Below are positions 1 through 28,559 of a stretch of 43,838 nucleotides of DNA, in pieces. The stretch spans positions 61,865 to 105,702 of the forward strand of contig RQSC01000056.1 in NCBI GenBank assembly GCA_013416795.1, read 5' to 3'. Under the pieces are notes generated by a model that was not told where the DNA came from, searched no databases, and saw nothing but the letters and a program-made list of their open reading frames with translations. The position numbers and the translations under genes are program-made. This stretch comes from Prasinococcaceae sp. CCMP 1430 (lineage: Eukaryota; Prasinodermophyta; Palmophyllophyceae; Prasinococcales; Prasinococcaceae). The number at the start of each line of letters is the position of its first letter. Positions within the stretch are counted from its first letter, which is position 1.

Positions 1-449
1 CCGTCGGCGCGCGGGCCTCGCTGATGGCGGAGCCGTCGCGCGCGGCGTCGCCCGCCACCGTGGGGTTCAACGCGCACGCGCTCGTCGGCGGCATGCCCGC
101 GGCGGCGCTCGCGAGCGGCGCGCCCTTCGCGAGGGAGGGCATCGTCATCTCGTCGCCCTTCGGCTCGCCCATCAAGCCGCGGGCGCGCATGATGACGCCC
201 ATGTCGCCCTCGCCCGTCGGCGCGCGGGCCTCGCTGATGGCGGAGCCGTCGCGCGCGGCGTCGCCCGCCACCGTGGGGTTCAACGCGCACGCGCTCGTCG
301 GCGGCATGCCCGCGGCGGCGCTCGCGAGCGGCGCGCCCTTCGCGAGGGAGGGCATCGTCATCTCGTCGCCCTTCGGCTCGCCCATCAAGCCGCTGGCGCG
401 CATGATGACGCCCATGTCGCCCTCGCCCGTCGGCGCCATGCTGCCGACG
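1..449 (+). repeat. 213-bp tandem direct repeat inside a coding region
   Basis: Bases 1-23 match 214-236, and 24-236 match 237-449 almost exactly. The one difference I found is g181 versus t394, changing Arg to Leu. The period (213 bp) is a multiple of three, so the frame is kept. The array continues beyond the left edge. Confidence 0.9.
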
Positions 450-8300: not shown

Positions 8301-8757
8301 CAGTGATGCCCCAACGCCAAGGAACGCTGAGGTTGCTGCATGCCGTACGCTTTTTTTCTCAGCTTTGCATCTCCAACGAAACCCTCCCTGAACCCCAAAC
8401 ATTGCACCGCAAACGCAGGCGGAGTGGCGGTGCCAGCCACGCCGCACCCGTCCGCGACCTCGGGCCGCGTCACCGCGTTGCTCATCAAGCAGCGGCTCCC
8501 ACGCATCTGACGCGAAAAACACGCGTGTGCCGGCGTGCGAGCTCACGTCGGACCATCTGGTGCCAGCGCAGCGCGTGAGCTGGCCAGCATTCTCTGTTGG
8601 ATTCGAGCTTTCGTTTTGATGAGCCTCGGATGTCGCAGATGGTTGAGATTTGACATTGCAGGCGAGTTCAAGCCGATGCAATTTGATACGGACCCGTTGT
8701 GGGAGAACGTGGTGCCATCGGTTTGGCGGTTGGTCGCATTCTCTGTCGAACGACGGC
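8301..8757 (+). repeat. Upstream direct repeat, copy 1 (before gene A)
   Basis: About 457 bp closely matching 15862-16321 by eye (roughly nine bases in ten), with identical long blocks such as the one around TTGCATCTC and the CCCTCCCTGAACCCC tract. The copies contain TTTTGAT (8614-8620), ATTTGAC (8648-8654) and ATTTGAT (8691-8697) at matching places. Small indels break every reading frame, so it is more likely regulatory or a mobile-element remnant than coding. Confidence 0.85.
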
Positions 8758-9402
8758 GCGTCCTCCCGCCCGCAGTGTGCCCCCGGCGTATCCCTGCGCA
8801 AAGATTGCGAGTTTGCTCTTCGCCGCGGGGATGCTGACGCGGCGAGCACACGCTCATGGGCAGCCAATTCAAAGACATTTTGGTTCCCGCAAGACCTATG
8901 TATCGCATCGAACGCGTCTACACGTGGCCGTTGACATGCATCGCCCCACGTAGTCGCCAACTGTTTGTTAATTCTTCCAGCTGCGATGCGTGCACACTTA
9001 AGTGGGTCCTGCCATCAAAACGGTGCGCACGTGCGTGGTGTCACGCCAAGGCGCCCATGCGCCCACCCTACGCCGCCGGCGCTGCCGCTGTACAGCGCGC
9101 GCACTGGCATGCGCGTGCGCGCCCGTCGTGGGCTCATGACGGCTGCGTGCTGGCGACGGCGCCACTGCGCTACCGCGGCGCACACAAGTGAGCGCGGAGC
9201 GTGACGCACTGCCACCAAGCGAAGGGGCGCGCTGCCACTGAAGGTTGTCGAGAGAGCGAGCGCACACCCCTCTGCCCACTTGCTGGTGTTGGTAGTGCTC
9301 GTGAGAGTGTTGTTGTCCCTGGCCACTGTGTGGCCATCCGTGGCCATCTATCCGGTTTACGTCAGGGTAGTCGCGGTCCATCGAGTTGGACCCTCGTGCA
9401 TC
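8758..9402. other. Leader region of gene A
   Basis: About 645 bp between the upstream repeat and the ATG of gene A. No supported gene. The frame of gene A stays open back to 9280 but lacks an earlier ATG. Confidence 0.35.
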
Positions 9403-11636
9403 ATGGCGGAGCCATGCACCAGCCATGCCGCTCCTGGTCAGCGCACGTCAACAGCTGATGAAGACAACATGCAGAAACTACTAGGTGTCCTCACCGACGC
9501 GAGGAGTGGCAACGCATGGAACCATTGGAACGAGCTGGACCCGATCCAAACAGAGGATGTGCCCGCACTTGCTGCCGCAGTGTCAAACAGCACGAGGCCA
9601 CTTGGTCAAGACAACATTCACATTTGGGAGTTGTGTGGGCCTTGTGATATGGAGCGAGAGAGCGTGACCGACTGGCGGCGCGAGGCTCTTCTTCTCCTGG
9701 GTTGCAGCCAAGCCATTGCTTTGGCCGCCGAGGACATACGCAGACCGTGGTTGGCGCCTGTGGCGAGCACATTCCTAAGACTCGGAACTGCACTTCTTGA
9801 CGCACCCATGCAACGAGTGGTTCGCGCATGGCAACACTGCGTCGATGGCATCATTGAGGTCGCGAGACTGCTGTGCTATTTCGAACGCAGTGGTGAGGCT
9901 GAGCTTGAGAGTGGCAATCGCAGCACGAGCACCGATAGTCGGTGGCGTATTCGGCGCTGGGCATTGAGCAACACAACTCCTGGACGCGAGATCGACATCG
10001 CGCTGCTGCAATTTGCGTTGCTTGGGGCGATTATCACCGAAGAGATCGCAAAAGACTCTCGTGCCAGTCTTGTTACTGCTGCGCTCGCGCCCGGCCCCTC
10101 CTCAACCTCCGAGAGACTGTCCCAAGCAGTGCAGGTGGTGGAACAGAGGTGCGGGATCAAGGAGAGGGTGCCTACGATCCAAGAGAACGTCAGGACGCTC
10201 ACGGAACTCAGCGGACCGCATCCACTGTCCGACACGTACGCAAAGCCTGGAACGATGGTAATGGAAAGGTCCGAAGTTGGCGATCGCATTTATGCTCTCA
10301 AGTCCATGAGAGCGCATGAAATCAACACCTGGCGCGCGTCTATTCCTGAGCAGGCCCAGCTTGCTCTAAAGTTGGTCCGCTTTCATGTGGGCAACGGCGA
10401 CTATCCGCACCTGACAGACATGAGGGAGAGGAGATGTGCTTGGTACGATTTTCTCGTCAGGCATGGTGCAGAGCACGTTTCCGAACAGAAATACGCAGCT
10501 GAGCTCTGCCAAGATGTGCAAGTTCTTTGGCGACCGCTATTGGCTTCCAAGGTGAGGGTGACCTACATGAGCGCGCAAGACCGCAATCTCCTGCTGGGCG
10601 CATCGGTAAGAGGCCCGTACTCCGTTGGTGCAGAAGGGAATATCAGAAGGGATTCCTCGGTATCACTCGTGACAGTCTTCGAGACAGATTATGATGAACC
10701 TGGGGATCAGTACAAGTCAGACGCGCAGGCAAGCGAAATGGCCGCCCGCGCGGCCAATGACTACTTCGGAGACCCTGCCGCGGGCGCCTTTCTCAAGGCG
10801 GCTATGGACACGGACGTACTTGAAAAGGCCGATGGCGATTATCGACAGGCACGAAAACATCTCGGTCGTCACCGCCTGGCTCTGGAGCTCCTGAGTACGA
10901 TGCTGAACAAGATTGAGACCTTTGGACAGAAAAAAATCAGGACGCAGGTGATGGGCACTACGGACGCCAGTTTAGCCGTGAGGCTGAAGGCGTCTGCAAA
11001 GAATTTTCTCAAATTCGCAACCACATGTTCCTGCCAGACGATGCACTGGAAGGCGTACGTCGTGGAGGTGCACTGGTGGGCGCTAGGGAGTGACGGGCGC
11101 TGGACAACCACTGAGTTCGAGAAGGTGTAGATGACTTGAGTCACCTGCTTTGGCGTTCTCGGTGACGCTACCTACATCGGCCATTCGACACATTCGTACA
11201 GAGCTCTTCAAGGGCGGCACACAGTCTGCGAGAGCGGCACAAAGCTCTACGAGTCAATACGAACTTGCAAAAGAAGCTCTTCAAGCCGCTCGCCGAAAGC
11301 GGATTTTCCCCCGACTGGCAGCACCACTGGTCACCGCTCTCGCCGTTGCGCGTGTGGGTCTTCGTCTGGGCAGCCATCGAAGACGTTGCGCAGATCACCA
11401 TTCAGCTCATATTCCTGCTCAACGAGTCAGACGACTGTTACCCGACGTACAACGAGGCCACTGGAACGACGGTGTCGATAGTCTTTGGCGCGCTACGCCT
11501 GCTGCTAGACATAGCACTGATTCTTCCGTCGCTCAACCTGAGCAAACGCGCAAACCAGGCTGCCAAGACTGTCGCAAAGCGTCTACGAAGTGTCCGTACT
11601 GCAACCTGCGGCGCAAAGAGCACGGACGAGACCTAG
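9403..11636 (+). CDS. Gene A: unrecognised protein with a C-terminal membrane module shared with gene B
   Basis: Model: exon 1 9403-11124 and exon 2 11202-11636, intron 11125-11201 (GTGTAG...GTACAG, phase 0), 718 residues. Without splicing the first frame stops at 11128-11130 and the shared module is lost. The first ~574 residues match no family I know: soluble-looking, mixed alpha/beta, with CGPCDMERESV and CSCQTMHW Cys pairs. Exon 2 encodes a short helix SLRERHKALRV, then FSPDWQHHW and SPLSPLRVW, a hydrophobic segment VWAAIEDVAQITIQLIFLLN, an NEATGTTVSIVFG segment and a second hydrophobic stretch LRLLLDIALILPSLN. This module is very like the end of gene B. It is inferred to be a membrane-attached protein. 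The start is the first ATG followed by convincing sequence; the splice is predicted, not observed, and if wrong the 3' part is a degenerate fragment. Confidence 0.55.
11202..11516 (+). repeat. Shared C-terminal membrane module, copy in gene A
   Basis: This stretch aligns by eye with about 20300-20623 in gene B at protein and DNA level (about 85% of bases from 11295). Its left limit coincides with the predicted exon 2 acceptor. The same DNA past about 11516 no longer matches. Confidence 0.8.
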
Positions 11637-11752
11637 TAACGCACGTGTTCGCGACCTACCTACCGCATAGCGAGGCTGCGGGCACGAGTCGCACAATTTG
11701 AGATTGGGTGCGTGCGACACGAAAGCATCGCAGTCCCAATGCGGGCGCGACA

Positions 11753-12117
11753 TCACCGCGGCGGCGCCTCCCCTCGGCTCCTCTGAGCGTCCGCGATGAT
11801 CTGCGCGAGCAGCTCGTCGGGCAGCGCCAGCGCGGCCGGGGTCGCGCCGTCGTCGTTGGCACGACCAGGGTCCGCGCCCCGCTCGAGCAGCAGAGACACC
11901 ACGCTCTGCTCCTTGGCCTCGGCGGCCGCTGCCAGCACCGTGTGACCCGTCGCGTCCGTTCTCTCCGGATCCGCGCCGGCGTCGAGGAGCATGCGCACGC
12001 ACGCGGCGCGCCCTGCCATCGCCGCGCGGTGCATCGCGGTGAGGCCATTGCGGTCGGCGACGTTGAGTTTGATCGGCTGTCCCCAGGGCGTGCCGTCGGC
12101 GGCGCTGCTGCCTCTCA
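11753..12117 (-). pseudogene. 3' fragment of a Nas6/gankyrin-like ankyrin gene
   Basis: On the minus strand this encodes the last ~120 residues of the Nas6-like protein at 20819-21892, including the stop codon (11753-11755). It contains two clear ankyrin units (RNGLTAMHRAAMAGRAACV..., TGHTVLAAAAEAKEQSVV...) and the DDGATPAALALPDELL end. The match, almost base for base by eye, stops at about 12117, inside what is exon 3 of the full gene; sequence upstream is unrelated. The frame stays open to 12532, so a chimeric ORF is possible, but that upstream part is Arg/Ala-rich without a recognisable domain. It is most simply a truncated duplicate. Confidence 0.75.
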
Positions 12118-12934
12118 CAGCACAAAGTCTGGTAGCCAGATAGCACACTCCCGGCGCCCCATCAGCCACGTCTGTGCGCGGTGCGCGCCCTGCTAATTTT
12201 GTTGCAAATTTGTGTACCCCGACAAGCGGATGTGACAACGACATCCTCGGAAGTCGCCAACTTGAACTCCACTTCGCTAGCCCGCGGCCCCGCACCGGCG
12301 CTTCCCCGCGCGTACCTGTAGCGAATCCGCGCGCAGATACGCCCCAGTCGCGAGCAGTGGAAGGCGCTCGATCGACAGACATGGTCGCTGTGCTGACGTG
12401 GCGAGGACGCGCTTCGGCGACGGCGCGTTCGACCACACGTGCGACGCGGCCTGGCTGGGCAATTGCGGCGCGTCGAAGCGTGGGGATTCGCCATTGACTG
12501 CCCGCGCGTCCCGAGCAACCGTTCCATGGCAATTCTCATAACCGCCTCCCAACTTCGGCCAACGGTGTGCGATTTTTCTAAACCCCAATGTCGGTGTGCA
12601 CGACGGATTTGGCTATTGCTGCATTGCAGGAGCGCCCGCACAGCGCGCGCGCTGACAGCGCTGGCTGGCGCGCAGAAGCGCACGCGCATGACGCGCGTGC
12701 GCGGGCGCCGCTAGAGCGCTCGCGCCGCGTCGCGCGCTCTCGTCTGAGGCAGCCAGTGGGATACGACGTCGCGGGGCGGGACTTGGATCGCCCACCCTCC
12801 CTGGGGCCTGCGCCGAACGGGCCCGCGCTCCTTCCGCGCCTCCGGCCGCCCGCGCGGTCCCGCTGCCACATTGCGCGACCCACACGCTTCGCGCACCGAC
12901 AACCACACTACGCAAAACTTGCACCAGAGTGATC
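12118..12934. other. Intergenic region upstream of the lipoxygenase
   Basis: No supported gene. It carries some A/T-richer segments (around 12190-12250 and 12565-12610) but no clear TTTTGAYC motif. It presumably contains the lipoxygenase promoter. Confidence 0.3.
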
Positions 12935-15598
12935 ATGGCGATGGCGTCGGCAGTCACCGCGCTGCCCCTTGGCCGGCCGCCCCGTACTTCGGCGACGCTC
13001 GCTGACGCGCGCAGCCGCGGCCGGAGCCGTCGTGCACGCCCGCGCGCCTGTGCGTACGAGGTGCGCGTGCGTGTGGCAGATCAGCGTGGCGCAGGCACAA
13101 AAGCCAGCGTTCTTCTGACGCTTGTCGGCGACGAAGGCAAAATGACAGACATTGAGATCAAAGCTGATGATGGCCTGTGGGGACGTCTTCGTGGCTTCAG
13201 CAAAGGCGGCACGGAGTACCACACGCTTGAGGATGGCGCTCAGGTTGGCGAGCCCGGGGCAATCGTTCTCAGGATGAACACAGCAGACGACGATGGCTTC
13301 AATGCGCTGGAGAGGCGGATCCGGAAGGCGATCGTGGATGGCTCACCCGATATCCCCAAAGCAACGAGTGCCTACATCTTGCGAGACTTCGACGTGTATC
13401 ACGACATTGACGACGCGCTGGGCGTGGCTGAGGTCGACGTGAGGTGCGTCGCCACCAACCGCATGTGGCGTTTCCCGCTGTACACGTGGCTCTCCGCTGC
13501 CGAGGGCAAGCGCGAGGCGGCCGTCGCTTTCTGCGGGCGCGGCTGCCTGCCGCAGGAGACGCCGGATCACCTCAAGTTCTTCCGCGAGATGGATCGGAAA
13601 TTCGGGAGCTATGCGATTCAGCTGAACAGCGTTAAAGGGGGAGCGGTGGCAGCGGCAGTCAAGCTGCCATTGCCCATATCGGAGGCCTTCAACGACGGGA
13701 AGAGGGCGACTTTCGTCGGTGGGGCAGCGCGCGTCGTCACCAGCCGACTCAAATTTTGTTCTTGCCCCGGGGGGTCGACGAAGATGGCGCTTTCACGTCC
13801 GTGCGCAAGGCTTCGTCAGCGGTGCACAAGACGCTCCGTGACAAGGCCAACGGCCCCGACGGCTCGCCTGATGCCTTCGCCGACGAAACCTTTGGTGCCA
13901 TGTTCCTTGCAGGCCCGCTTGCGGGCTACTTCGAGCGTGTTGAAGCAGATGAGGGCGGCGCACTGCTGCCCGAGCGGCTGAAGCGCGCGGGGATTGATGA
14001 CAAGCTATTCGAGGGGCATCCATATGCGCCGCCAAAGGGCGCAACGCTCGCCAGCGAAGCAAGAGCAGGTCGGCTCTTCTGGACGTCGGCGAAGTCGCTC
14101 GAAGGCTGCGCGCTGCCTGATTCCCATCTCAAGCACATCAAGCACCACGTCTCGCCCGGGGCTGCCGTATTGCTGCTCTCGCGGCCCGACCTGTCGCCGC
14201 CGCAGCTGCTGCCGCTGGCAATCTCGTTGGAGGAGCACAAAGGGGCACCGCTCTTTAAACCGGACGACGAAGAGTGGGCCTGGCGCACGGCCAAAGCCCA
14301 CGTCTTGTGCAATCTGGCGCTCGTACATCAGGTGGGCCTACACTGGAGCGAATGCCACGCCGCCGCTGAGCCCATGTGCGGTGCCGTTCAGAGCCGGCTG
14401 TCGTACCTGCATCCGCTGCGGCGCCTGCTCATGCCGCACATCAACTACACGCTGGCCATCAACGCCTCAGCGCGCGGGACCCTCCTTCAGCCAAGGGGCG
14501 TCATCGAGACGCTATTCGTAGCTGGCCCCAACGGTGTGGACTTCGACCAAGAAACTGCCGAGGCATGGTCCAAGGAACTGGGCGTGAAGGTGAAGCCCAC
14601 CAAAGTCAGCTTTGCAGCCAACTACTGGGCCAAGTGGGAGGGCTACACGGACCTGCCACGCATGCTCGAAAAGCGCGGGCTGAAGGAGTCGGCCGGCCTG
14701 CCGGACGACATGTTCCCCTTCCGCGCCGATGCGCTGCCGCTGTGGGACGCCATCAACACGTGGGTGGGCGAATACCTGGGTGTGTGGTATGAGAGCGACC
14801 AGGACTGCGTAGAGGATGACGAACTCAAAGAGATGATCGACGAGCTCGTGAAGGGGCTTGGCAACTGCCCCGAGGGCGTGCGCATAAAGTACGCTGAGGC
14901 GGCGACATCAAAGAAAGAGCTGCATTCTCTGATCGCGTCTTTCATCTTCCAAGTGAGCGTCATGCACGCGGCGCGCAACTTCACGCAACATAAGTGGTTC
15001 GGCGCGATCGGTCTCGCGCCCTTCAATGTGCGCACGCCGCCGCCGTCCGACAAGACGGGATGCGACCAGCAAAGCTTCTGCGATATGCTGCCGAGTCCCC
15101 AGGACACTCTGAGCGGCGTAGGCATCGTGAAGCTACTCTCGACGGTGCGTGCGCATGCGTTCACATCTGCTCCGCAGAGGTGCACATGCAACGGCAACAT
15201 CGCGTTCGCGCCGCGCTGCGATGGCGAGCGCGTTGCCCGGCCGCGTTGGTGGTGTCCCTGCTGCATTGCACGTTCTTGCACGCCGTGTGCGCGCGCGTGC
15301 AGCTGCCTCAGCACATACGAACGCTGCGATGGCAGCGCGTACAGCTCGCTGACCGGTCTGGCTTTCTTCCGCGATCCCCCGACATGGTCGTATCTAGTAC
15401 TCAAAAGGCGACCAGTACCTCGGTAGGCCTTCACGTGACTGGATCGAGTGCCCTGAGGCCGAGCGTGCGCAAGCAAAATACCGCAAGCGCTTGGACAAGG
15501 CCACCAGGGCCGCTTGGAAGCGTGAGCTTGCACGCAGAGAGGCACAAGCGATCTCGTACGACGCGCTGCTCAAAGTTCCGACGTCTGTCGCTATCTAA
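12935..15598 (+). CDS. PLAT-domain lipoxygenase with an apparent frameshift
   Basis: Lipoxygenases add O2 to polyunsaturated fatty acids, the first step to oxylipins. An Arg/Ala/Ser-rich start of about 36 residues (possible transit peptide) precedes a PLAT domain (AYEVRVRVADQRGAGTK, LLTLVGDEGK). The catalytic domain keeps the H-x4-H-x4-H-x17-H-x8-H motif (codons 14326, 14341, 14356, 14410, 14437). Iron ligands are His 14341, His 14356, His 14965, Asn 14977 (MHAARNF) and a C-terminal Ile (15593-15595, ending VPTSVAI). The last part needs an intron 15145-15415 (donor GTGCGT, phase 0) and exon 15416-15598; a few expected residues at the join are missing, so a microexon or other site may be used. 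Between about 13745 and 13775 the coding frame moves by one base at A3T4/C4G6 runs. This could be an assembly indel, a real mutation or, less likely, a 29-base intron. The start is the ATG at 12935. Confidence 0.85.
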
Positions 15599-15861
15599 GT
15601 ATGATAGCTAGCTCTTCGATGCTGCTGGTTGCTGGAGTCACGCACACAGTTGGTGGCTTGCGGAGTGGCGCCTAGCGGCTCTACTGAGAAGAACGATCGT
15701 GCAGAGAGAGAGGGGGGCAGTTGACGTCGTGCGCAAACCAGTACTACAGGTATCGTACAAGAGGGCCGGCTAAGGGGGGGGGGAGGGGGGGGGAAGAGAG
15801 GAGACAGAAAGAGATACGGATTCAGAGACAGAGACAGAGTAGTAAGATATTTGGCGCCCCT
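15599..15861. other. Gap with poly-G and purine-rich low complexity
   Basis: Between the lipoxygenase and the second upstream repeat. It contains a G-run tract with single A interruptions at about 15774-15800, followed by GA-rich sequence to about 15840. No gene seen. Confidence 0.5.
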
Positions 15862-16321
15862 CAGTGACGCCCGAACGCCGAGGAGCGCTGAGAATGCTGC
15901 ATGGCGTACGCTTTGCAGCTCAGCTTTGCATCTCATACGAAACCCTCCCTGAACCCCAAACATTGCACCGCGAACTCTGGCGGAGTGGCCGTGCCAGCTG
16001 CGCCGCACCCGTCCGCGTCCTCTGGCCGCGTCACCGCGTTGCTCATCAAGCAGCGGCTCCTACGCGTCTGACGCGAAGAAGACGAGGCAGGCTTGCGAGC
16101 TCACGTCGGACCCTCTGGTGCCAGCGCAGCGCGCGAGCTCGCCAGCATTCTCTGTTGGATTCGAGCTTTTGTTTTGATGAGCCTTGGATGTCGCAGATTG
16201 GTTGAGATTTGACATTGGAGGCGAGTTCAAGATGATGCAATTTGATACGGACCCGTCGTGGGAGAACGCGGTGGTGCTATCGATTTGGCGGTTGGCCGCG
16301 TTCTCTTTTAAACGAAGGTGC
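15862..16321 (+). repeat. Upstream direct repeat, copy 2 (before gene B)
   Basis: The partner of 8301-8757, in the same orientation and ending about 643 bp before the ATG of gene B (copy 1 ends about 646 bp before gene A). It keeps TTTTGAT (16172-16178), ATTTGAC (16207-16213) and ATTTGAT (16240-16246). Relative to copy 1 it has a one-base and a three-base insertion in this part. Confidence 0.85.
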
Positions 16322-16963
16322 GCACGCCGCGGGCCGGAGGAAATCTTTGCCATAGATACGGTTGCACACGTCAGCGAGCCCGTGCGTGGGTGTGGTTCGC
16401 CTTACTAAGCAACCAGAGCTTGCGCTCGGAGCCTCGGAGGCAGCAGTTGTGCGGCTGCGGTTAACACTGGCGCCCGCGAACGCGCGCCCGCACACCGCGA
16501 TGCCGCGCCTTTTGCACTCGTCGGTGTAGGATCGCGCTGACCCCTTCTGTAGTGTCCAGCACTGCATGCGGCCCGCAAAGGGAGTGTGTGGCGAGGCACA
16601 TAGTGGCACACAGTGCGCGCGTCGAGCGCAGGCGGGGCCGTGGGCACAGTGCAGGCTGCGCAGTGCGCCGGTGGCATAACGCGCCCGCCCGACACGGCGG
16701 CACAGCGGAGCGAGTGGGACGCGCGCCGAGCACGTCTTCCTTTCAGTAGCGGCGCGGGGCAGCATAGCGCGGCAACGCGGAGCAGCGGGGCAGCACGGCA
16801 GAGGTAGCGCAGAGGGCGTTGTCTGCGCAAGACGACTGCAACAAGTGACGATGAAGCGCAGCGCTGAGTGAGTCTGAGGACAGCTCAAAGCGAAAACGTG
16901 CAGCGCGACAGCAGCACAACGATATCTCGGCGTACTGAGCGGCCCGCTTTCGTGCTGTGCACC
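16322..16963. other. Leader region of gene B
   Basis: About 640 bp without a supported gene. The gene B frame is open back to 16868 but without an earlier ATG. Little similarity to the matching stretch before gene A is visible. Confidence 0.35.
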
Positions 16964-19900
16964 ATGAGGCCCGGCGGTGATGTGCTACTCATTATACTGT
17001 GGCCGCTGCGCGCGTGGCTTGCAAGCCTCTCAATGGCTGCCCCTTCGACGGCAGCGTCCACTTCGCCCCAGCGCATGTGGCTCGCTACTTGTGGATCGTG
17101 CAAGTTCTTCGATGAAGGCGGCACGCTGGTGCGCGAGACACCACCGAGTGATTGCCAGAGCCATAGCTGCTGCGGTCAGTGCGTTTCCCTCAACCTAGGG
17201 GAGTGCGCAACCTGTGGCAACCTGAGGGCGCTATCGCAGAATGTCTTCGAAGGCATGTCCGAGCTCGAAAGTCTGGACCTGGAAGACAACAATTTGATGT
17301 CGCTGCCGAAAGACATATTCGCCGATCTGACCAGCCTTCAGGATCTGGACGTGAGCAACAACCAGCTGCGCTCGCTGGCAAACGAGCCATTCGCGGATCT
17401 GACCAGCCTGCTCAGGCTGGACGTGAGCAACAACCTGCTGGGCTCGCTGGCAAACGAGCCGCTGGCAAACAAGCCATTCGCGGACCTAGACAAATTGGAG
17501 AAGCTGGACATGGGCCAAAATCAGCTGAGCTCGCTGCCGATTGGAACGTTCGACGGCCTGCGTAACCTTCAGACGCTCGCCATGGACGACAACAATCTGA
17601 TCTCCAGTTCGCTGTCGACTGGAGTGTTCGCGGACCTGGTCAACCTGACGGTGCTTGGCATGAGCAGAAATCAACTGCGCGCGCCGCTGTCGGACGGAAC
17701 ATTCACAGGCTTGGCCACGCTTGAGGAGCTATACATGAAGCAAAATCAGTTAGGCTCGCTGCCGAACGGAACATTCGCGGGGCTGACCGGGTTGCTGGTT
17801 CTGAGCCTCAGAGACAATCAGCTGAGCTCGCTGTCAAGCAGAGCGTTTATGCATCTGACAAAGCTACAAAAGCTATTCATCAGCAACAACCCGCTAGACG
17901 CGGCCTCGCTGTCGGACGGGCCATTCACGGACCCGGAGTACCTGAAAGACCTTGAGAACCTGTATATGAGAGATTGCAAGCTGAGCAAGCTGCCGGATCG
18001 AGCGTTCGCCGGCCTTGGCAAGCTGCGGGTGCTAGGCATCAGGGACAACCCACTGCGCGAGCTATCGAGCGAGTCTTTTGTGAATCTGGCCAGCCTTGAA
18101 GTGCTGGACATGCGCGACAACGATCTCAACGGATCTCAACCGATGGGGCTGCTCAAGCCGCTGAGCAGCCTTACGACGCTCTCGCTGGGAAATACTAGTT
18201 CTAGTAGTACTGGTGTCGACGCAAGATCGGTGTGCTTCCACGAGTTGCCTCCGTTGGCGGTCGCGGAATACATTCGCGGGCTGCCTGTGACCGCGTGGAA
18301 TAGTCGCCAATGCACCCCGACCGATTGCAGCCCGCTGCGATGTGGTACATGCGCGTTCGTGGTTGACTCTGGTACATTGCGTGCTTCTGACGAGAGTGGG
18401 AATGTCCGAGTCGCGCGTGATGAGTCTGCAACAACCACTGATTCGAGCATTTCGTGCGGCGATTGCGTTGGGCTCAACCTGTCATTCAGTGGCGTGCGCT
18501 CTTTCGAAAGTGGCGTGTTCGAGGGGCTCGACCAGCTCCGGTACCTGATCCTCGCCGACAGCGACGATGCGACTATACAGGAACCCGTTTCTGGTGGTGC
18601 AAAGTCTGATACCGGTACGAATCACGGCCTACGGATCAACATGGTGTCGATGTTAGAGGCAACAAACAAAAACTTCACGCCAAACTTGGCGAGACTGGAC
18701 GTGCGCTCGTTCGGCAGCTGCATCTTCTATCTGAACTACACCGGTGGGCGTGTAAAGGAAGGGATTACAGAGCTTCGACGCTGGTCACCTTTCGGCTTCA
18801 GAGATTGCGGTGTGATAGACGATACGGGGGAGAAGATCTCACCACGCAGCGGACTCCTGGACCTGGCGAATGCCGAACTGGACAGCATTTCCTCCGATGT
18901 GTTTACAGAGCTGAGAGAGCTAAAGACGCTGAACCTTCGGAACAACAATATCTCAGCGTCTCCGCTTGTTCATCTTGAGAGCGCCAGAGACTTGGCATCA
19001 ATTGAGACGATCGATCTACGCGACAACGACCTGCGGTCCTTGGAGCTAACGAGTAGCATTGATTGCTCTTATTTGTCTTCGGTGTCAGGCGAGGACGGCG
19101 TCAAACAGCCGGTGCTACAATTCCGTCCTGGCAATGACAAAATCAAACGCATCGCGCATCCCAGATTTTGTCCCTCCACCGACAAGAACTGCACACCCAC
19201 CTGCGAATGCCCCAAAGACGCGGGTTTCGGGAAGGTATTCGTGATGGTCAAAATCGAGGGCACCTATGTGTGCGTGGAAGACTTCTGGCCGGATTTCTGG
19301 TACAAGTTTCTGCTGCCGCTCGTGGGGACGATCATTGTTGTTTTGTTCGCGTTAATGCTTCAAATGTGGCTACTTTCTGCCTTCCACAAGCACCACCGCC
19401 ACGTCCACACGAGTAGGGGCGAGGCTGCAGAGCTCAGAGAAGTCACTCTCACGTCGCGATACCTGCAGTTCGGTGTTGCCGAGAGCATGGCTCTGCTTAC
19501 GTCTGTCATGCTTTCGGTTGGCGATGTGGTGACGGACGTGCTCTTCATCACCGACTTTGTGAATGACACATGCAGGGAACTTCAGAAACCATCTATCGTC
19601 TTTTTGGCGGTTCCAGGAGGTATGATGCTCGCTGCTGGCATCGCTACCGTCATCGCTGGCATGGATCACATCGACTGGGAAAACCGGCCGTGCCAAAGAT
19701 GGCGTCCGAGTCGGCTGCTAGATGGTACGGAGCGTGCAAAAGACGTGTCCTATCCGACGCGACTCAGACTGCGAGTGGCTCGTCAGCCCGCTACAGACGA
19801 GGAGGGCTTCGCCCAGCGCCAGGTCGTCTCTAACGCGTCATCGCTCTTCACGCTGGCCGTGTGCGTGGCAGACTTCAACGCCATCAAGCTCTTGCCGTGG

Positions 19901-20692
19901 ACTGTCAGCAGGGTGCCTCCCAGCTGTTGCAAAGACGTATCCTTGCAGCAGGAGGAGGCGGAAGAGAACGAGCAGCGCGAGGAAGAGGAGAGGGCAGACA
20001 GGCTAGAGGAAAGAGCGGATGTGGAGGCGGCGGCGGCGGATGCCCAGGCGGTGGCAGAAGAGAACAGCCTGAGACAGAATGAGCGGCAGGCGTTGCGAGG
20101 GCTCCACGTTTGGCCCGACCCGACTCATCATCACCTGGCTTTTGGAAGGGAAAACATTTGGCCCGACCCGAATCCGAATCTTTATCACCGCACCCTCTCT
20201 GTGATACGGCGTTCTAGGATCTGGAATGGCCAGTGGACTCGGGCTTTTAGTAATAGGATGAGCAACCTGGAAGGGAGGTGCGAAGCTGTGCAAAAGAAAC
20301 ACACACGTCTGCGAGAGCGGTATGAAGCTCTGCAAGGGCAGCGCGACGCTCTGCAAGACTTTAGACGCCTGCAAAGGAAACTTTACCAGCCGCTCGCAGA
20401 CAATGCATTTTCACCCGACTGGCAGCACCCATGCTCGCCGCTCTCGCCGCTGCGCGTGTGGGCCCTTGTCTGGGCGGCCATCGAAGACATTGCGCAGATC
20501 GCCATCCAGCTCACGTTTCTGCTCAACGACGCAGATAACTGCTACCCGACGTACAACGAGGCCACCGGAACGACGGTGTCGATTGTATTCGGCGGGCTAC
20601 GCCTGCTGCTAGGCACAGCATCAATGATAGCGACACTACGCGTCATGGCGCGGCGGCGGCGGCGCGCAAAAGAAAGTGAACGAGAAGACTAA
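16964..20692 (+). CDS. Gene B: LRR receptor-like multi-pass membrane protein
   Basis: A single open frame of 1242 residues. The ATG at 16964 is chosen because it begins a signal peptide (MRPGGDVLLIILWPLRAWLA). The ectodomain begins with a Cys-rich cap (CGSCKFFDEGGT... CCGQCVSLNLG), then about 13 leucine-rich repeats of roughly 24 residues (for example SLQDLDVSNNQL). A second cap-like unit (CGTCAFVVDSGT... CGDCVGLNLS) and a third (SFGSCIFYLNYTGG...) start shorter LRR groups. A transmembrane helix follows (LLPLVGTIIVVLFALMLQMW, about 19300-19375), then further hydrophobic segments near 19455-19560, 19600-19665 and 19830-19900, a charged coiled coil (about 19940-20100 and 20260-20395), and the C-terminal module shared with gene A. 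There is no kinase, TIR or death domain. The IEDIAQIAIQLTFLLN helix recalls the E-x-x-PQ helix of XK-type proteins, but only weakly. A surface receptor or adhesion role is inferred. Confidence 0.85.
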   Translation: MRPGGDVLLIILWPLRAWLASLSMAAPSTAASTSPQRMWLATCGSCKFFDEGGTLVRETPPSDCQSHSCCGQCVSLNLGECATCGNLRALSQNVFEGMSELESLDLEDNNLMSLPKDIFADLTSLQDLDVSNNQLRSLANEPFADLTSLLRLDVSNNLLGSLANEPLANKPFADLDKLEKLDMGQNQLSSLPIGTFDGLRNLQTLAMDDNNLISSSLSTGVFADLVNLTVLGMSRNQLRAPLSDGTFTGLATLEELYMKQNQLGSLPNGTFAGLTGLLVLSLRDNQLSSLSSRAFMHLTKLQKLFISNNPLDAASLSDGPFTDPEYLKDLENLYMRDCKLSKLPDRAFAGLGKLRVLGIRDNPLRELSSESFVNLASLEVLDMRDNDLNGSQPMGLLKPLSSLTTLSLGNTSSSSTGVDARSVCFHELPPLAVAEYIRGLPVTAWNSRQCTPTDCSPLRCGTCAFVVDSGTLRASDESGNVRVARDESATTTDSSISCGDCVGLNLSFSGVRSFESGVFEGLDQLRYLILADSDDATIQEPVSGGAKSDTGTNHGLRINMVSMLEATNKNFTPNLARLDVRSFGSCIFYLNYTGGRVKEGITELRRWSPFGFRDCGVIDDTGEKISPRSGLLDLANAELDSISSDVFTELRELKTLNLRNNNISASPLVHLESARDLASIETIDLRDNDLRSLELTSSIDCSYLSSVSGEDGVKQPVLQFRPGNDKIKRIAHPRFCPSTDKNCTPTCECPKDAGFGKVFVMVKIEGTYVCVEDFWPDFWYKFLLPLVGTIIVVLFALMLQMWLLSAFHKHHRHVHTSRGEAAELREVTLTSRYLQFGVAESMALLTSVMLSVGDVVTDVLFITDFVNDTCRELQKPSIVFLAVPGGMMLAAGIATVIAGMDHIDWENRPCQRWRPSRLLDGTERAKDVSYPTRLRLRVARQPATDEEGFAQRQVVSNASSLFTLAVCVADFNAIKLLPWTVSRVPPSCCKDVSLQQEEAEENEQREEEERADRLEERADVEAAAADAQAVAEENSLRQNERQALRGLHVWPDPTHHHLAFGRENIWPDPNPNLYHRTLSVIRRSRIWNGQWTRAFSNRMSNLEGRCEAVQKKHTRLRERYEALQGQRDALQDFRRLQRKLYQPLADNAFSPDWQHPCSPLSPLRVWALVWAAIEDIAQIAIQLTFLLNDADNCYPTYNEATGTTVSIVFGGLRLLLGTASMIATLRVMARRRRRAKESERED
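20300..20623 (+). repeat. Shared C-terminal membrane module, copy in gene B
   Basis: The partner of 11202-11516. It encodes the end of the coiled coil, FSPDWQH, SPLSPLRVW, two hydrophobic segments and YPTYNEATGTTVSIVFG between them. Here it is not set off by an intron. Confidence 0.8.
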
Positions 20693-20818
20693 GAAGTTAA
20701 GCGCGCGGCTTTGACCTACCGCCGGCGACGCAGGGCGGACGTGCGTTGCACAGAGCGTGACAGGGCGCGTGCGCGCTTGCGACGCGCAGCCCTCGCAGCC
20801 CTCGCTCGCATACCAACC

Positions 20819-21181
20819 TCATCGCGGCGGCGCCTCCCCGCGGCTCCTCTGAGCGTCGATGATGATCTGCGCGAGCAGCTCGTCAGGCAGCGCCAGCGCG
20901 GCCGGGGTCGCGCCGTCGTCGTTGGCACGACCAGGCTCGGCCCCCCACTCGAGCAGCAGAGACACCACGCTCTGCTCCTTGGCCTCGGCGGCCGCTGCCA
21001 GCACCGTGTGACCCGTCGCGTCCGTTCTCTCCGGATCCGCGCCGGCGTCGAGGAGCATGCGCACGCACGCGGCGCGCCCTGCCATCGCCGCGCGGTGCAT
21101 CGCGGTGAGGCCATTGCGGTCCGCGACGTTGAGTTTGATCGGCTGCCCCGAGGGCGTGCCGTCGGCGGCGCTGCCGCCCCT
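20819..21181 (-). repeat. Source copy of the truncated ankyrin fragment
   Basis: This part of exon 3 matches 11753-12117 nearly base for base; differences cluster in the first ~140 bp (for example around the 11866-11885 / 20930-20950 pair) and at the far end. Same orientation relative to the neighbouring membrane gene in both places. Confidence 0.85.
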
Positions 21182-21892
21182 CGCCTCGAGGAGCGCCCCC
21201 AGGGCCTCCTCGCGCCCCTTGCTCGCGGCGAGCGACAGCGCGGTGGCGCCCGCGTTGGTCTTGGCGTTGAATACCTTGGAGGCGGCGGCTGCAGAGGGCG
21301 CGCGCGAAGGTGCGCGCACGTCAGCTGCGTGTGCGTTCAGTCGCCCTCGATCAGCCGGCAAGAGCACAAAAGCACACGCACCTCCCGCGTCCTGGCTCTC
21401 GGACTCGAGCAGCTCCCGGGCGTGCGCGCTCACAACAACCGCCATCGCACGCACTGCCGCGGCGAGCCCCTTCGCTGCGGCAGTGTGCATGGGCCCCCAG
21501 CCGGCTGCGTCCTTGCAGGCGATCAGTCTGACGGCGACGCCAGCCCGCTCCTCGCAGAGCCGCGCGGCAGCGGCGGCGTGGCCCTCGGCGACCGCGCGGT
21601 GCAGCGCGGAACGCTCGTCGGCATCGCGCGCGGTGAGGATAATGTCGTTGTCGAATGCCGCGAGGGCGTCCAGGTCTCCCTTGGACGCGGCCTCAATGGC
21701 GAGCTTGCGCAGCTCGACCTGCGCGAACGGGAATGCGGCGCCAGCACGAGCGCGCATCAGCACACAGCCAGCAATGTCAGCCTTGGCGCGCCAGCAGCGC
21801 CGCGTCGCACTAGGCCAGTGCCCGCACGGCGCGCCACGCGCTCGCACCTGCGCGTCCTTCGCTCCGCTCGACTGCCCCCCTGCTGCCGCCAT
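20819..21892 (-). CDS. Nas6/gankyrin (PSMD10)-like ankyrin-repeat protein
   Basis: Model on the minus strand: exon 1 21892-21848, intron 21847-21719 (CAG|GTGCGA...GCGCAG), exon 2 21718-21382, intron 21381-21289 (GGAG|GTGCGT...TGCAG), exon 3 21288-20819; 283 residues. Both introns are multiples of three (129 and 93 bp), so the frame is also open unspliced. Nas6/gankyrin is an assembly chaperone of the 19S proteasome cap. Seen here: ankyrin units with DADERSALHRAVAEGH, KDAAGWGPMHTAAAKG, TNAGATALSLAASKG, RNGLTAMHRAAMAG and TGHTVLAAAAEA, in the same order and wording as gankyrin, plus a charged C-terminus. A longer linker (ELLESESQDAG) sits after the second repeat. It ends only 126 bp from gene B, tail to tail. 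Gankyrin identity is by pattern; another ankyrin protein is possible. Confidence 0.72.
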   Translation of the reverse strand: MAAAGGQSSGAKDAQVRARGAPCGHWPSATRRCWRAKADIAGCVLMRARAGAAFPFAQVELRKLAIEAASKGDLDALAAFDNDIILTARDADERSALHRAVAEGHAAAAARLCEERAGVAVRLIACKDAAGWGPMHTAAAKGLAAAVRAMAVVVSAHARELLESESQDAGGACAFVLLPADRGRLNAHAADVRAPSRAPSAAAASKVFNAKTNAGATALSLAASKGREEALGALLEARGGSAADGTPSGQPIKLNVADRNGLTAMHRAAMAGRAACVRMLLDAGADPERTDATGHTVLAAAAEAKEQSVVSLLLEWGAEPGRANDDGATPAALALPDELLAQIIIDAQRSRGEAPPR

Positions 21893-22140
21893 AGCGCGTG
21901 CACCACTGCGCCCCTGTTGCGCGGTCTGGCGCCAGTATGGCACATTTCCATTTCCTGTGCCCGGCGCCACCACACAGCGCGCTCGCAGCGCGAGCGGCAC
22001 GGGGTGCCGGCAGGAGAGGTGAGGCAGGGCGGCAGGCGGGCCGTCCGAGCGGCTCATCGCACACACTCGTCGGTAAGCGAGCGCTAGCAACCTCTCCGCC
22101 CGCCGGAGCCCGCACCCGCCTCGTCAACAGCCCGGCAGCG
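21893..22140. promoter_or_regulatory. Short divergent promoter
   Basis: Only 248 bp separate the start codons of the Nas6-like gene (-) and the aminotransferase (+), so they must share or abut promoters. Unlike several other divergent gaps it is GC-rich and lacks TTTTGAYC. Confidence 0.45.
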
Positions 22141-23427
22141 ATGGCGAGCTCAATGTGCACGCCCGCAACCGCGGCCACGACAGCAGCTCATCGTACCCCA
22201 GGCCGTGCCCCCCCCCGCCGGATCGCACCGGCGGCAACGAGCCAAAGCGCCCTGGCATCGCGCGTCGCAGGCCTGAAGAACGAGGGCGCGTACGCGGTGC
22301 TCGCCGCCGCGCAGGCGCTCGAGGCGCAGGGCCGCGACGTGGTGCACCTGGAGATCGGCCAGCCGGCGTATCCGACGCCGGACCACGTCGTCGAGGCGGG
22401 CGTCGCCGCGCTGCGCGGCGGCCAGACCAAATACAGCGCGCCCGCGGGCGTGGCCGCGCTGCGCGACGCCATCGCGGCGCACGTGAACGCCACGCGCGGC
22501 CTGGACGGCGCGCAGGCCATAAGCGGCGCCAACGTGGTGGTGGGCCCGGGGGCGAAGCCGGGCATCTTCGCCGCCGCGCTCGCGCTCGTCGAGCCCGGCG
22601 ACGAGGTGGTCTACCCCGACCCAGGCTTCCCCAGCTACGGCGCGGCGGTCGACGTGTGCGCCGGCGTGCACGTGCCCGTCGCGCTCACCGCCGACGGGGC
22701 AGGCTTTGACATGGACGCGCTGGAGGCGGCCATGTCGGAGCGCACCAAGCTCATCATCGCCAACTCCCCGGGCAACCCCACCGGCGGCGTGATGCCCGCG
22801 GCGGACGTGCGGCGCATGTGCGAGCTCGCCAAAAAGTACGACGCGTGGGTGATCAGCGACGAGATATACTCGCGGCTGGTGTACGACAGCGCGGAGGGCG
22901 CGTGCCTGTCGCCGCTGGCGGTTGAGGGCATGGCGGAGCGCACGGTGATGGTGGACGGCTTCTCCAAGACGTACTGCATGACCGGGTGGCGGCTGGGCTG
23001 GGCCGTCGCGCCGGCCGCCCTCGCGGAGCGCATGGAGCTGCTCAACGTGCACAACTACGGCTGCACGGCGACCTTCACGCAGGCGGCGGGGCTCGCGGCG
23101 CTCGAGGGGCCGCAGGACAGCCTGGAGGAGATGCGCGCCGAGTACGAGCGGCGGCGCGACTTCGTGGTGGGCGCGCTCAACGCCATGGAGGGCGTCCACT
23201 GCCCCGAGCCGGCGGGGGCTTTCTACGCCTTCCCGGACACGTCGGCCCTGGGCATGAAGAGCGCGGACCTCGCGTCGCTGCTGCTGCAGGAGGGCGGCGT
23301 GGCCCTGCTCCCCGGCACCGACTTCGGCGCGCAGGGGGAGGGCAAGCTGCGCCTGTCCTACGTGAGCTCGATGGCCGAGCTCGAGGAGGGCCTCACGCGC
23401 ATGGAAAAGGTGCTGCGCGGTCTCTGA
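22141..23427 (+). CDS. Class I/II PLP-dependent aminotransferase, aspartate/prephenate aminotransferase type
   Basis: The product is 428 residues; the ATG at 22141 gives a ~32-residue Ala/Thr/Arg/Pro-rich start without acidic residues, typical of a plastid or mitochondrial transit peptide. The fold-type I catalytic set is present: YSAPAGVAALRDAIA (about 98-111), YPDPGFPSY (158-166), NSPGNPTGG (208-216), ISDEIYSRLVY (238-248) with the cofactor-binding Asp and Tyr, and the Schiff-base Lys in DGFSKTYCMTGWRLGW (Lys276). The substrate-carboxylate Arg lies near KLRLSYVSS at the end. The spacing and motif wording fit the prokaryotic-type aspartate aminotransferase group (subfamily I-gamma), which in plants is a plastid enzyme acting on aspartate and prephenate. 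The exact substrate cannot be told from sequence alone. Confidence 0.85.
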   Translation: MASSMCTPATAATTAAHRTPGRAPPRRIAPAATSQSALASRVAGLKNEGAYAVLAAAQALEAQGRDVVHLEIGQPAYPTPDHVVEAGVAALRGGQTKYSAPAGVAALRDAIAAHVNATRGLDGAQAISGANVVVGPGAKPGIFAAALALVEPGDEVVYPDPGFPSYGAAVDVCAGVHVPVALTADGAGFDMDALEAAMSERTKLIIANSPGNPTGGVMPAADVRRMCELAKKYDAWVISDEIYSRLVYDSAEGACLSPLAVEGMAERTVMVDGFSKTYCMTGWRLGWAVAPAALAERMELLNVHNYGCTATFTQAAGLAALEGPQDSLEEMRAEYERRRDFVVGALNAMEGVHCPEPAGAFYAFPDTSALGMKSADLASLLLQEGGVALLPGTDFGAQGEGKLRLSYVSSMAELEEGLTRMEKVLRGL

Positions 23428-23582
23428 GACACTCGCCGTCGGACGCTCGCGTCGCGCTCGCCGGAGAGTCTATGTATACATGACCATTCCATTCTCATTT
23501 CGGTGTAACAAGCAGCGCGAGAGCAAGAGAGAGACGCGAACAAGGCCCTCCTCTCGCGAGCAAGCGCTCGGCGCCTCCCGCC
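23428..23582. terminator. Convergent 3' gap with TGTATACA palindrome
   Basis: TGTATACA at 23473-23480 lies between the ends of the aminotransferase (+) and AP-4 beta (-). Being its own reverse complement, it could serve both genes. Confidence 0.45.
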
Positions 23583-26084
23583 TCAGCCCACGAAGCGCAT
23601 CAGCGCGCCCTCCAGCACCTCCTTGCACGCGCCGGCCAGCGACGCGTCCTCGGTCTTGATGGTACCCGAGGCCGCGTTGCCGGTGCAGTCCACGTTGAGC
23701 TCGATGAGCGCGAGGGACACCTGCCCGCCCACGCCCGCGCCGCCCTGGCAGTGCGCGTAGAGGAAGTACTTGTACGCGGGGTGCGCCCCACCCGACGCGA
23801 TGCAGTTCACGCCGGCAGACGCCAGGTGCGTGATGAGCGGGCGCGGGCCGCCCGCCAGCGACGCGCCCCCACCCGCGCCCAGCGGCGCGCCGGCGACCGT
23901 CGCCGCCGGCTCCATCGCGCCCCACGCGGCCTGGAACGCCGCGGGCGCCAGCGCGGCGCCCTGCACGAACGTCACGGCCGGGCGCGGCGGCGAGGGCGCG
24001 GGCGCACCCGCGCCCATGCCGCCCATCCCGAGCAGATCCTCGAGCGGATCCGAAAGCGGCGGCGCGGGCGCCTGCCCACCAGGTGCCGCGGGCTGGTCGA
24101 AGCCGCCGAGCAGGTCGATGGGATCGTACGCCGTGCCCCCCCCCGCGCCCGCCCCTGAAGGCGTGCCGCCCGCGTCGTCCCCGTAGTCCGCGTCCAGGTC
24201 GAGCAGGTTGTTGTCAGCGAAGGCGGACTGCTCCGCCGCGCCGCCGCCCATCGCGCCTTCGTCAGGGCCAGCCTCGCCGCCCGCGCCAAACTGGTCCGCC
24301 GGATCGGAGGTGACGAACGCCGCCGCGGGCTTGTTGTAGATCACCGAAAGGCTGTTGAACTCCTCGAAGATGGCATCCCTGGCGGCTTGGCTCTGGCCCG
24401 AGGCGAACTCCACCACGGCGTCCTTCGGCGCGGCGATGACGCCGGACGCGTCGGTCGCCGAGTGCTGCAGGAGCCGATAGTACATGAGGGCGCGGTCGTG
24501 CACGTCCATGTGCTCGTCCTCGCACCCGGCCGCCAGCACGCGCCCCAGCATGGCCTGGCACTCGGGCGGGCGCTTGAGGAACAGCTTGGTCGCCGCGGCG
24601 AGGAGCTCCAGGCGCACCTCGGGCGAGGCCTCGTCCGCGAAATCGTCGAGCATGGGCTCGAGCGAGTACGGCGCCGAGGGTATCACGTGGCCGAACTCGC
24701 CCAGCATCCACACGAGCGCGGCGCGAGCGGCGGGCTCGGTGACTGAGTTCGGGGAAATGGCCGCCGCCGCTTCGAGGATGTCGAACGCGCGCTCGGGGAA
24801 CCGGCGCAGCAGGTCCTTGGCCACGATGAGCGTCTCGGACACGAGGTGCGGCGAGTCCGCGTCGAGAAAGCCCAGCAGGCGCTCCGAGATGCCGCCCATG
24901 TCCTCGGTGCGGAGCGCGATGGAGCCGATCGCGTGCAGCGACGCGCGCGCAATGGGCACGTCGATGTCCGCCGCGTACTCGCTGAGCTCCGTGACGATCT
25001 CGTACACGTTGTTTTGGTCCGCCACCTCGGCCAGCATCGAGAGCTTCACGCGCTTCACGTAGGCCGGGTCGCTGTACCGGCAGTAGAACTGCTTGTAGTC
25101 GAGCGAGAACAGCGAGGGCGCGCGCGACACCAGCAGCTTGAGGTGCGACAGCACCGCAAAGGCCACCTCGGGGCTCGCGGTGGACGCCAGCGTCAGCAGC
25201 GGCGCCTTGACGCGCTCGTACACCTGCTGGTGCACCTGCTCGATCTCCATGGTGATGTGCAGGAAGAGCTTGGTGGTGGCGAGCACGATGGCGCTGTTGG
25301 TGTGCGACATGCGGTCCTCGAGCAGGTTCATGAAGGCGAACACCTCGTCGGCGTTCTCCGGCTTGTACGCGCACACGAAGTCGATGACCATGCACTGCGC
25401 GTACTCGGAGAACTCCTTGATCCTGTTGAGGAGCGAGTACACCAGCGCCTTGGTGGCCAGCCCCTCGACGCCGCCCTCGATTTCCACCAACGTCGACAGG
25501 CAGTTGGCGACCACGCCCGCGTCGCGATCGCCCGTCACCATGGCGCGCAGGGTGTCGACGAAGCCCGCGTCGACGCACGCGCTGGGGTCCAGCGCGTAGA
25601 GCTTGAGCACGCCCATGGCCGCCGTCTTGCGCACGTAGGCGCTCTCGTCCTCGAGCCCCGTGCGCAGCGGCCCCACCAGGTACTCGACGAGGTTGGGCAC
25701 GCGCAGCGAGCCCAGCGAGCGCAGGGCCAGCCCGCGGATGGTCGGGTCGGGCTCTGCGCAGTCCTTCTGCAGCGCGTTCACGGTGAGCAGCGCCAGGTCG
25801 GGCTTGCGCATCGCGTACGTCGAGATGTACAGGTACAGCATCTTCTTCAGGACCGGGTCGTCGGCGCTGCACGCCATGATCATCTCCGTGAAGAGCCCCG
25901 ACACGTCGATGGAGATCGTCATGTACGAGATCACCTTGCGGAAGGTCTCTTGCTTGGCCTCGCGCACGCCCGCCTTGGTCGAGCCCGCGAGCGAGCGCAG
26001 CCGCGAGCGCAGCTCCTCAAGCTCGCCGCGCCGCTCGCTGCCGCGGCCCGGCGCGGCCTCGCCCGCGGCGCGCGCGGGAGCCAT
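23583..26084 (-). CDS. AP4B1: AP-4 complex subunit beta
   Basis: The product is 833 residues with no intron. The AP-4 adaptor works at the trans-Golgi network in cargo sorting without clathrin. The adaptin trunk (about residues 20-560) begins with ELEELRSRLRSLAG and carries motifs closer to AP-4 beta than AP-1/2 beta: KVISYMTISIDVSGLF, RGLALRSLGSLRVPNLVEYL, LNRIKEFSEYAQCM, VHQQVYERVKAPLLTL and DYKQFYCRYSDPAYVK. A Gly/Ala/Pro-rich hinge (about 600-715) contains short acidic-Leu motifs (NLLDLD, DLLGGF, DPLEDLLG) but no perfect LΦxΦ[DE] clathrin box that I would defend. The appendage-like C-terminus contains VNCIASGGAHPAYKYFLYA, as in AP-4. The ATG at 26084 lies just before the conserved region; the frame is open further upstream to 26339 but Arg/Ser-rich and unlike adaptins. 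Confidence 0.93.
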   Translation of the reverse strand: MAPARAAGEAAPGRGSERRGELEELRSRLRSLAGSTKAGVREAKQETFRKVISYMTISIDVSGLFTEMIMACSADDPVLKKMLYLYISTYAMRKPDLALLTVNALQKDCAEPDPTIRGLALRSLGSLRVPNLVEYLVGPLRTGLEDESAYVRKTAAMGVLKLYALDPSACVDAGFVDTLRAMVTGDRDAGVVANCLSTLVEIEGGVEGLATKALVYSLLNRIKEFSEYAQCMVIDFVCAYKPENADEVFAFMNLLEDRMSHTNSAIVLATTKLFLHITMEIEQVHQQVYERVKAPLLTLASTASPEVAFAVLSHLKLLVSRAPSLFSLDYKQFYCRYSDPAYVKRVKLSMLAEVADQNNVYEIVTELSEYAADIDVPIARASLHAIGSIALRTEDMGGISERLLGFLDADSPHLVSETLIVAKDLLRRFPERAFDILEAAAAISPNSVTEPAARAALVWMLGEFGHVIPSAPYSLEPMLDDFADEASPEVRLELLAAATKLFLKRPPECQAMLGRVLAAGCEDEHMDVHDRALMYYRLLQHSATDASGVIAAPKDAVVEFASGQSQAARDAIFEEFNSLSVIYNKPAAAFVTSDPADQFGAGGEAGPDEGAMGGGAAEQSAFADNNLLDLDADYGDDAGGTPSGAGAGGGTAYDPIDLLGGFDQPAAPGGQAPAPPLSDPLEDLLGMGGMGAGAPAPSPPRPAVTFVQGAALAPAAFQAAWGAMEPAATVAGAPLGAGGGASLAGGPRPLITHLASAGVNCIASGGAHPAYKYFLYAHCQGGAGVGGQVSLALIELNVDCTGNAASGTIKTEDASLAGACKEVLEGALMRFVG

Positions 26085-26740
26085 GCTGGGCAGGGGGGGA
26101 AGCCGCGCCGCGCCGCACCGAGAAAACCGCGCGCTCCCGCCCCGCGCCGCGCCGCCCCCCCTTTTCCTCCCACTCGCGCGCGAGAGAGCGAACGACCGAG
26201 CGAAAGAGAGGAAAAAAAGGACCAGCGAAGGGCGAACGCGGGGGGCAGCGCCCGACGAGGCCTCCGCAGAACGGCACCCCCCTACCCCACCACCTGGCAG
26301 CCCCGCGCGCTCACGCGCGCGCTCTGTGGCGTGTGCCACGCTGCAGGCCGCCTTCGAGCGCCTTCACGTGCGCGCGCGCAAAACGCTCGCGAACCCCCGC
26401 CTCTCAAATTAATGCGTTTTGACCTAGATCGCCCGTGGGTTATTTCACCTCAAATTGAAAGCTAATGGGGGAAGCAGAGGAACGGGGGGGTGTTGAAGCG
26501 CGAGAGCGTGCGCCGCAGCAGCGCCACAGCGCGGGCGCCGCAGCGCGTGGGCATAGAGGCGAGGGGCTCGGCGGGCCAGAGACTGGAGCGCGCAGGGTGG
26601 AGGCTCAGCGGCGCTCGCGTGCGTTTCGCTGCTTCTCGCGCGTGCGCTCGCGAGCTCTCGCCCGCAGCAAGGGGGGGGGGCGTGGCCGTCGCGAAGCGCG
26701 CGCGGCGCCTCCGGCTGTTGGCCGCTCGCGGCGACGCGAC
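26085..26740. promoter_or_regulatory. Divergent promoter with TTTTGACC
   Basis: It separates AP-4 beta (-) and sphingosine-1-phosphate lyase (+). TTTTGACC occurs at 26417-26424 in a short A/T-rich island (26400-26465) that also holds CAAATT on both sides. The rest is GC-rich and without a supported gene. Confidence 0.5.
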
Positions 26741-28384: not shown

Positions 28385-28559
28385 GGCGATACTACAGTGT
28401 ACAGTACGCGTCGCGCGTCGCCTGCGGCATGCACACCGTTGTCACGCATGTACACTTTTGTTTTGCACGCATCGTCGCGCGACGCCGCGCGCTCAAGCTG
28501 GGTCTCGCGCAGTGGTACAAAAGATAAAAGGTGTATGTATACAAGCGATGCCCGCGCAG
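28385..28559. terminator. Convergent 3' gap with TGTACA and TGTATACA
   Basis: Between the lyase (+) and the TOR1/SPR2-like gene (-). TGTACA at 28398-28403 and 28449-28454, and TGTATACA at 28536-28543, give three palindromes within 150 bp. Confidence 0.5.

Follow-up and report, generated by a model that had tools for sequence, protein, structure and literature searches.

A putative chimeric gene inside a duplicated LRR membrane-protein segment of Prasinococcaceae sp. CCMP 1430

Genes and repeated blocks of the window

The DNA analysed here (the window, 43,838 nucleotides with a GC content of 66.6%) lies on contig C104 of a 24.5 Mb assembly of 145 contigs from Prasinococcaceae sp. CCMP 1430. 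The genome is compact, GC-rich and eukaryotic, and the neighbour genes are eukaryotic as well (beta-adaptin, Exo70, F-actin capping beta and TORTIFOLIA-like). Two membrane-protein genes of the forward strand, named here gene A and gene B, are each preceded by a copy of an upstream block and followed by ankyrin sequence on the opposite strand (Table 1). A PLAT/lipoxygenase gene is found between the two copies, and beyond gene B there are the full ankyrin gene and an aminotransferase gene. Scans of the window for RNA families and tRNAs gave no match. Two other repeats are present: a 213-bp direct duplication (99.5%) at the very start of the window (1-436), which is either very recent or an effect of the assembly, and a 36/72-bp tandem array (40112-40467) that encodes a Pro/Thr/Ser-rich repeat (Pfam PT repeat) in a 1012-aa frame.

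Table 1. Features of the two copies and of the DNA between them, in window coordinates
Feature	Position	Strand	Basis or remark
Upstream block, copy A	8301..8760	+	88.6% identical to 15862-16322; possibly promoter or 5' region
Gene A, putative first coding exon (~574 aa)	9403..11124	+	Open frame 9205-11130
Gene A, putative 77-nt intron, GT..AG, phase 0	11125..11201	+	Removes TAG at 11128, joins frames
Gene A, second exon: last part of membrane module, two hydrophobic helices	11202..11637	+	81.5% DNA identity to 20329-20620; C2 paralog alignments; hydropathy
Ankyrin 3' end, copy A, cut at duplication boundary	11753..12116	-	95.6% identical to B copy over 367 bp
PLAT/lipoxygenase gene between copies, outside duplicated blocks	12938..15598 (ends approximate)	+	Pfam PLAT and Lipoxygenase 4.6e-44
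Upstream block, copy B	15862..16322	+	Pairs with copy A
Gene B: signal peptide, LRR ectodomain, ~6 TM helices	16964..20692	+	LRR_8 1.5e-62; PDB LRR matches; hydropathy; full-length C2 paralogs
Gene B membrane module matching gene A second exon	20301..20692	+	Self-comparison, alignments
Full-length ankyrin-repeat gene 3' of B, convergent	20819..21892 (ORF 20819-22123)	-	Ank_2 1.4e-20

The original prediction described three blocks that recur in the same order, and self-comparison recovers exactly those three pairs, far beyond chance. In the self-BLAST of the window these are the upstream pair (8301-8760/15862-16322; 88.6% identity, E 2e-169), the membrane-module pair (11225-11516/20329-20620; 81.5%, E 5e-77) and the ankyrin 3' end pair (11750-12116/20816-21182; 95.6% over 367 bp, E 2e-169). 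In a more sensitive comparison, the last two merge into a single collinear block (11198-12116/20301-21182, 78.5%). Neither comparison gave any significant match between the interiors that separate the upstream and downstream blocks, which measure 2437 bp in A (8761-11197) and 3978 bp in B (16323-20300), in agreement with the proposal that the two membrane genes are unrelated between the blocks. The almost equal distances from repeat to ATG that had also been pointed out (646 and 643 bp) are arithmetically right, the first of them resting on a presumed ATG, since the start codon of gene A is uncertain. The spacers themselves, however, are not homologous: their global alignment does not score above dinucleotide shuffles (36 of 200 reach the same score), and 27% of their positions are identical when they are placed side by side without gaps at equal offset. 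Because of this lack of homology, the near-equality of the distances is probably a coincidence.

The upstream block is present in exactly two copies in the assembly. Its substitutions are spread over the three codon positions (17/10/19, without codon periodicity) and there is a 1-bp indel, so that the block is non-coding; a regulatory role, possibly as a promoter, is plausible. The ankyrin 3' end is also found in two close copies in the genome. On the A side the match stops at 12116, so that no more than the C-terminal ~124 aa of the B-side protein are represented, while the B-side gene continues.

Gene B and its LRR relatives

Gene B is a 1274-codon open frame in which LRR arrays lie between Cys-rich caps and the last two membrane helices form the module in common with gene A. 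Its product presumably works at the cell surface, as an LRR receptor or an adhesion protein. It shares with the receptor-type LRR membrane proteins (TLR-like, LRR-TM) the signal peptide, the LRR arrays flanked by Cys and the membrane helices, but it ends in a module of about six helices instead of a TIR or kinase domain or a known 7TM domain. This C-terminal part has no match in Pfam and no relatives among viral and prokaryote contigs, and its single-sequence structure prediction (pLDDT 50) was too poor for a fold search. A likeness of the membrane part to XK-related scramblases had no Pfam support and is not claimed.

A search of the genome for further copies gave only the two known ones for the upstream block and, for the module, a tandem pair of genes on contig C2 together with one distant relative on contig C60 (138205-138903), all of them without the upstream block. 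The C2 genes are 34-36% identical to gene B across most of the protein, and the C60 relative has, by eye, the motifs DVxSDVLF, LLPW and EDxAQ of the module. An LRR ectodomain followed by a C-terminal multi-TM region is thus present in gene B, in the C2 pair and in the distant C60 gene, while gene A lacks the LRR. Since all the relatives outside the window are LRR-plus-multi-TM genes like B, the architecture of B can be regarded as ancestral and that of A as derived. In the module tree, in which C60 has a very long branch, the modules of A and B group as sisters with a support of 96/93, and they have in common an LSP insertion that is absent from C2. This disposes of the objection that the two modules might be no closer to each other than to distant members of the family.

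The tandem LRR-TM genes of C2 are long (approximately 16,000-29,000 of that contig), with 5' ends that are 84% identical and LRR arrays of different lengths; both contain a single in-frame stop, a TAG or a TGA depending on the gene, which would correspond to pseudogenes, introns or errors. On contig C52, a 200-bp segment (754751-754950) is 99.5% identical to window positions 19722-19921, which are part of gene B. It abuts an N, has unrelated surroundings and is probably an artefact of assembly gap filling.

The putative fusion in gene A

The first region of gene A is in a different reading frame from the module, and the putative intron, read off the sequence, would connect the two. The homology between A and B starts at 11198, adjoining the putative splice acceptor. 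Searches with the first region against Pfam, NCBIfam, PHROG and PDB sequences gave no match, and neither its own genome nor viral or prokaryote contigs yielded a relative. The region contains neither LRR nor any other Pfam domain, the ATG model has no signal peptide, and the single-sequence structure prediction (pLDDT 36) was too poor for a fold search. In frame just 5' of the presumed ATG, positions 9205-9402 encode a strongly hydrophobic stretch (AHLLVLVVLVRVLLSLATV) without in-frame ATG, which an upstream exon could turn into a signal anchor. As modelled, the product would probably consist of a cytosolic region of about 574 aa and unknown fold, followed by two C-terminal membrane helices. 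Because about four of the approximately six helices of the family are missing, the earlier statement that the membrane module had been kept in both copies is true only for its last part.

It could be argued that gene A is not a true fusion, and that a decaying module fragment simply lies beside a gene with no relation to it, or beside an open frame that arose by chance. The frames are indeed separated by the stop at 11128, and the first region lacks homologs in all the collections mentioned above and has weak codon-usage support. Nonetheless, 574 open codons have a chance of approximately 1e-10 at the local composition, and the GT..AG intron is in phase, with the edge of homology at its acceptor. 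In addition, the A module is intact and nearer to the family consensus than that of B: it contains no stops, has a shorter branch in the tree and, where both C2 proteins agree, departs alone at 3 positions, compared with 6 for B. The absence of stops and the fewer departures indicate that the A module is not visibly decaying, which argues for constraint on it, although the pairwise dN/dS between the two modules (0.4-0.55) is not decisive in this respect. With these points in mind, the absence of a fusion is considered improbable.

Origin of the locus and comparison with known systems

The explanation that we favour with some confidence is a local segmental duplication, followed by a swap of the interior of copy A that gave rise to a fusion gene; that is, an ordinary case of new-gene formation. 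According to this explanation, one local duplication would have copied the upstream block, the LRR multi-TM gene and the 3' third of its convergent ankyrin neighbour, and the boundary of the duplication, falling inside the ankyrin gene, would have left copy A of the latter cut short. Copy A would later have lost about 4 kb of its interior, comprising the ectodomain and about the first four membrane helices, and approximately 2.4 kb of unrelated DNA would have taken its place, supplying a new exon spliced via a small intron to the surviving last exon of the module. Copy B would have retained the ancestral architecture. The locus has the hallmarks of a segmental duplication, with homologous blocks in collinear order at either side and a neighbour gene cut at the boundary, and this portion of the original prediction, with its kept ends and differing interior, is borne out. 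A point against this explanation is that the copies are not directly adjacent, the lipoxygenase gene lying between them. The searches of its own genome and of viral and prokaryote contigs gave no donor for the unique region of gene A.

The divergence of the blocks is quite uneven. Substitutions amount to 46/457 (10%) in the upstream block, 16/367 (4%) in the ankyrin end, 54/292 (18%) in the module and 30/106 (28%) in the spacer between module and ankyrin (module versus ankyrin, p 7e-9; upstream block versus spacer, p 5e-6). To explain this with a single duplication, some of the blocks must have been constrained or converted later: the figures would fit if the upstream block and the ankyrin end had been under constraint, or if gene conversion had acted on the flanks afterwards. 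A different history, in which A and B are older tandem duplicates whose flanks were made alike in more recent times, by gene conversion or by a second copying, while the module kept its older divergence, would account for the much greater divergence of the module and its adjoining spacer, and also for the abrupt increase in identity close to the stop codon of the ankyrin gene. Against it, the ankyrin sequence is under protein constraint (dN/dS about 0.15-0.25) and has a higher GC3, and the difference between module and ankyrin at fourfold sites (7/36 versus 7/76) is not significant (p 0.14). Such an older origin is thus rated as rather unlikely, though less so than the absence of a fusion.

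The preferred reading, duplication and swap, also differs from the comparison with variable-receptor loci made in the original prediction, in which promoter and membrane module are conserved and the ectodomains between them would be exchanged again and again. The kept ends and differing interiors are what such a locus would present, and the C2 pair likewise has similar 5' ends and differing LRR arrays. However, the assembly holds no third copy of the upstream block, the module-bearing genes are few and all but A have LRR regions, and the unique part of gene A, as modelled, has no hallmark of an ectodomain. Since the other module-bearing genes carry LRR ectodomains like that of B, gene A is a single odd copy and not one of a set of exchanged ectodomains; the comparison is not supported, and repeated exchange is given hardly any credence. 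A hotspot between the upstream block and the module exon, where differing N-terminal parts (including a non-LRR region) would be spliced onto a common membrane module, with alternatives segregating among strains, is scarcely more credible. If other strains had other interiors, the locus would count among the candidates for diversification loci of microbial eukaryotes.

Two known systems are relevant here. In brown algae, LRR-ROCO genes with shuffled LRR exons and variable LRR arrays have been proposed as immune receptors (PMC11378527). The present family resembles them in consisting of LRR genes with variable LRR arrays, but each LRR of the brown algal genes has its own exon, whereas in gene B they share a single open frame, and what was exchanged in gene A is not LRR. 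In Drosophila yakuba, chimeric genes are reported to have formed via tandem or segmental duplication with exon shuffling (PMC5460883). Those chimeras and the present locus have in common that the duplication boundary cuts a neighbour gene and that a copy gains new partner sequence; unlike them, the part replaced here falls within the unit that was duplicated, and no donor of it emerged from the collections searched. The present case belongs with the chimeric genes derived from tandem duplication (PMC5460883) rather than with LRR exon shuffling.

Read in this way, the locus would be a clean example of a chimeric gene that arose within the duplicated segment of an LRR membrane protein, its fusion point coinciding with a putative splice acceptor. 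The analysis also brings to light a small family of LRR-plus-multi-TM proteins, and the membrane module at their C-terminus lacks a Pfam match.
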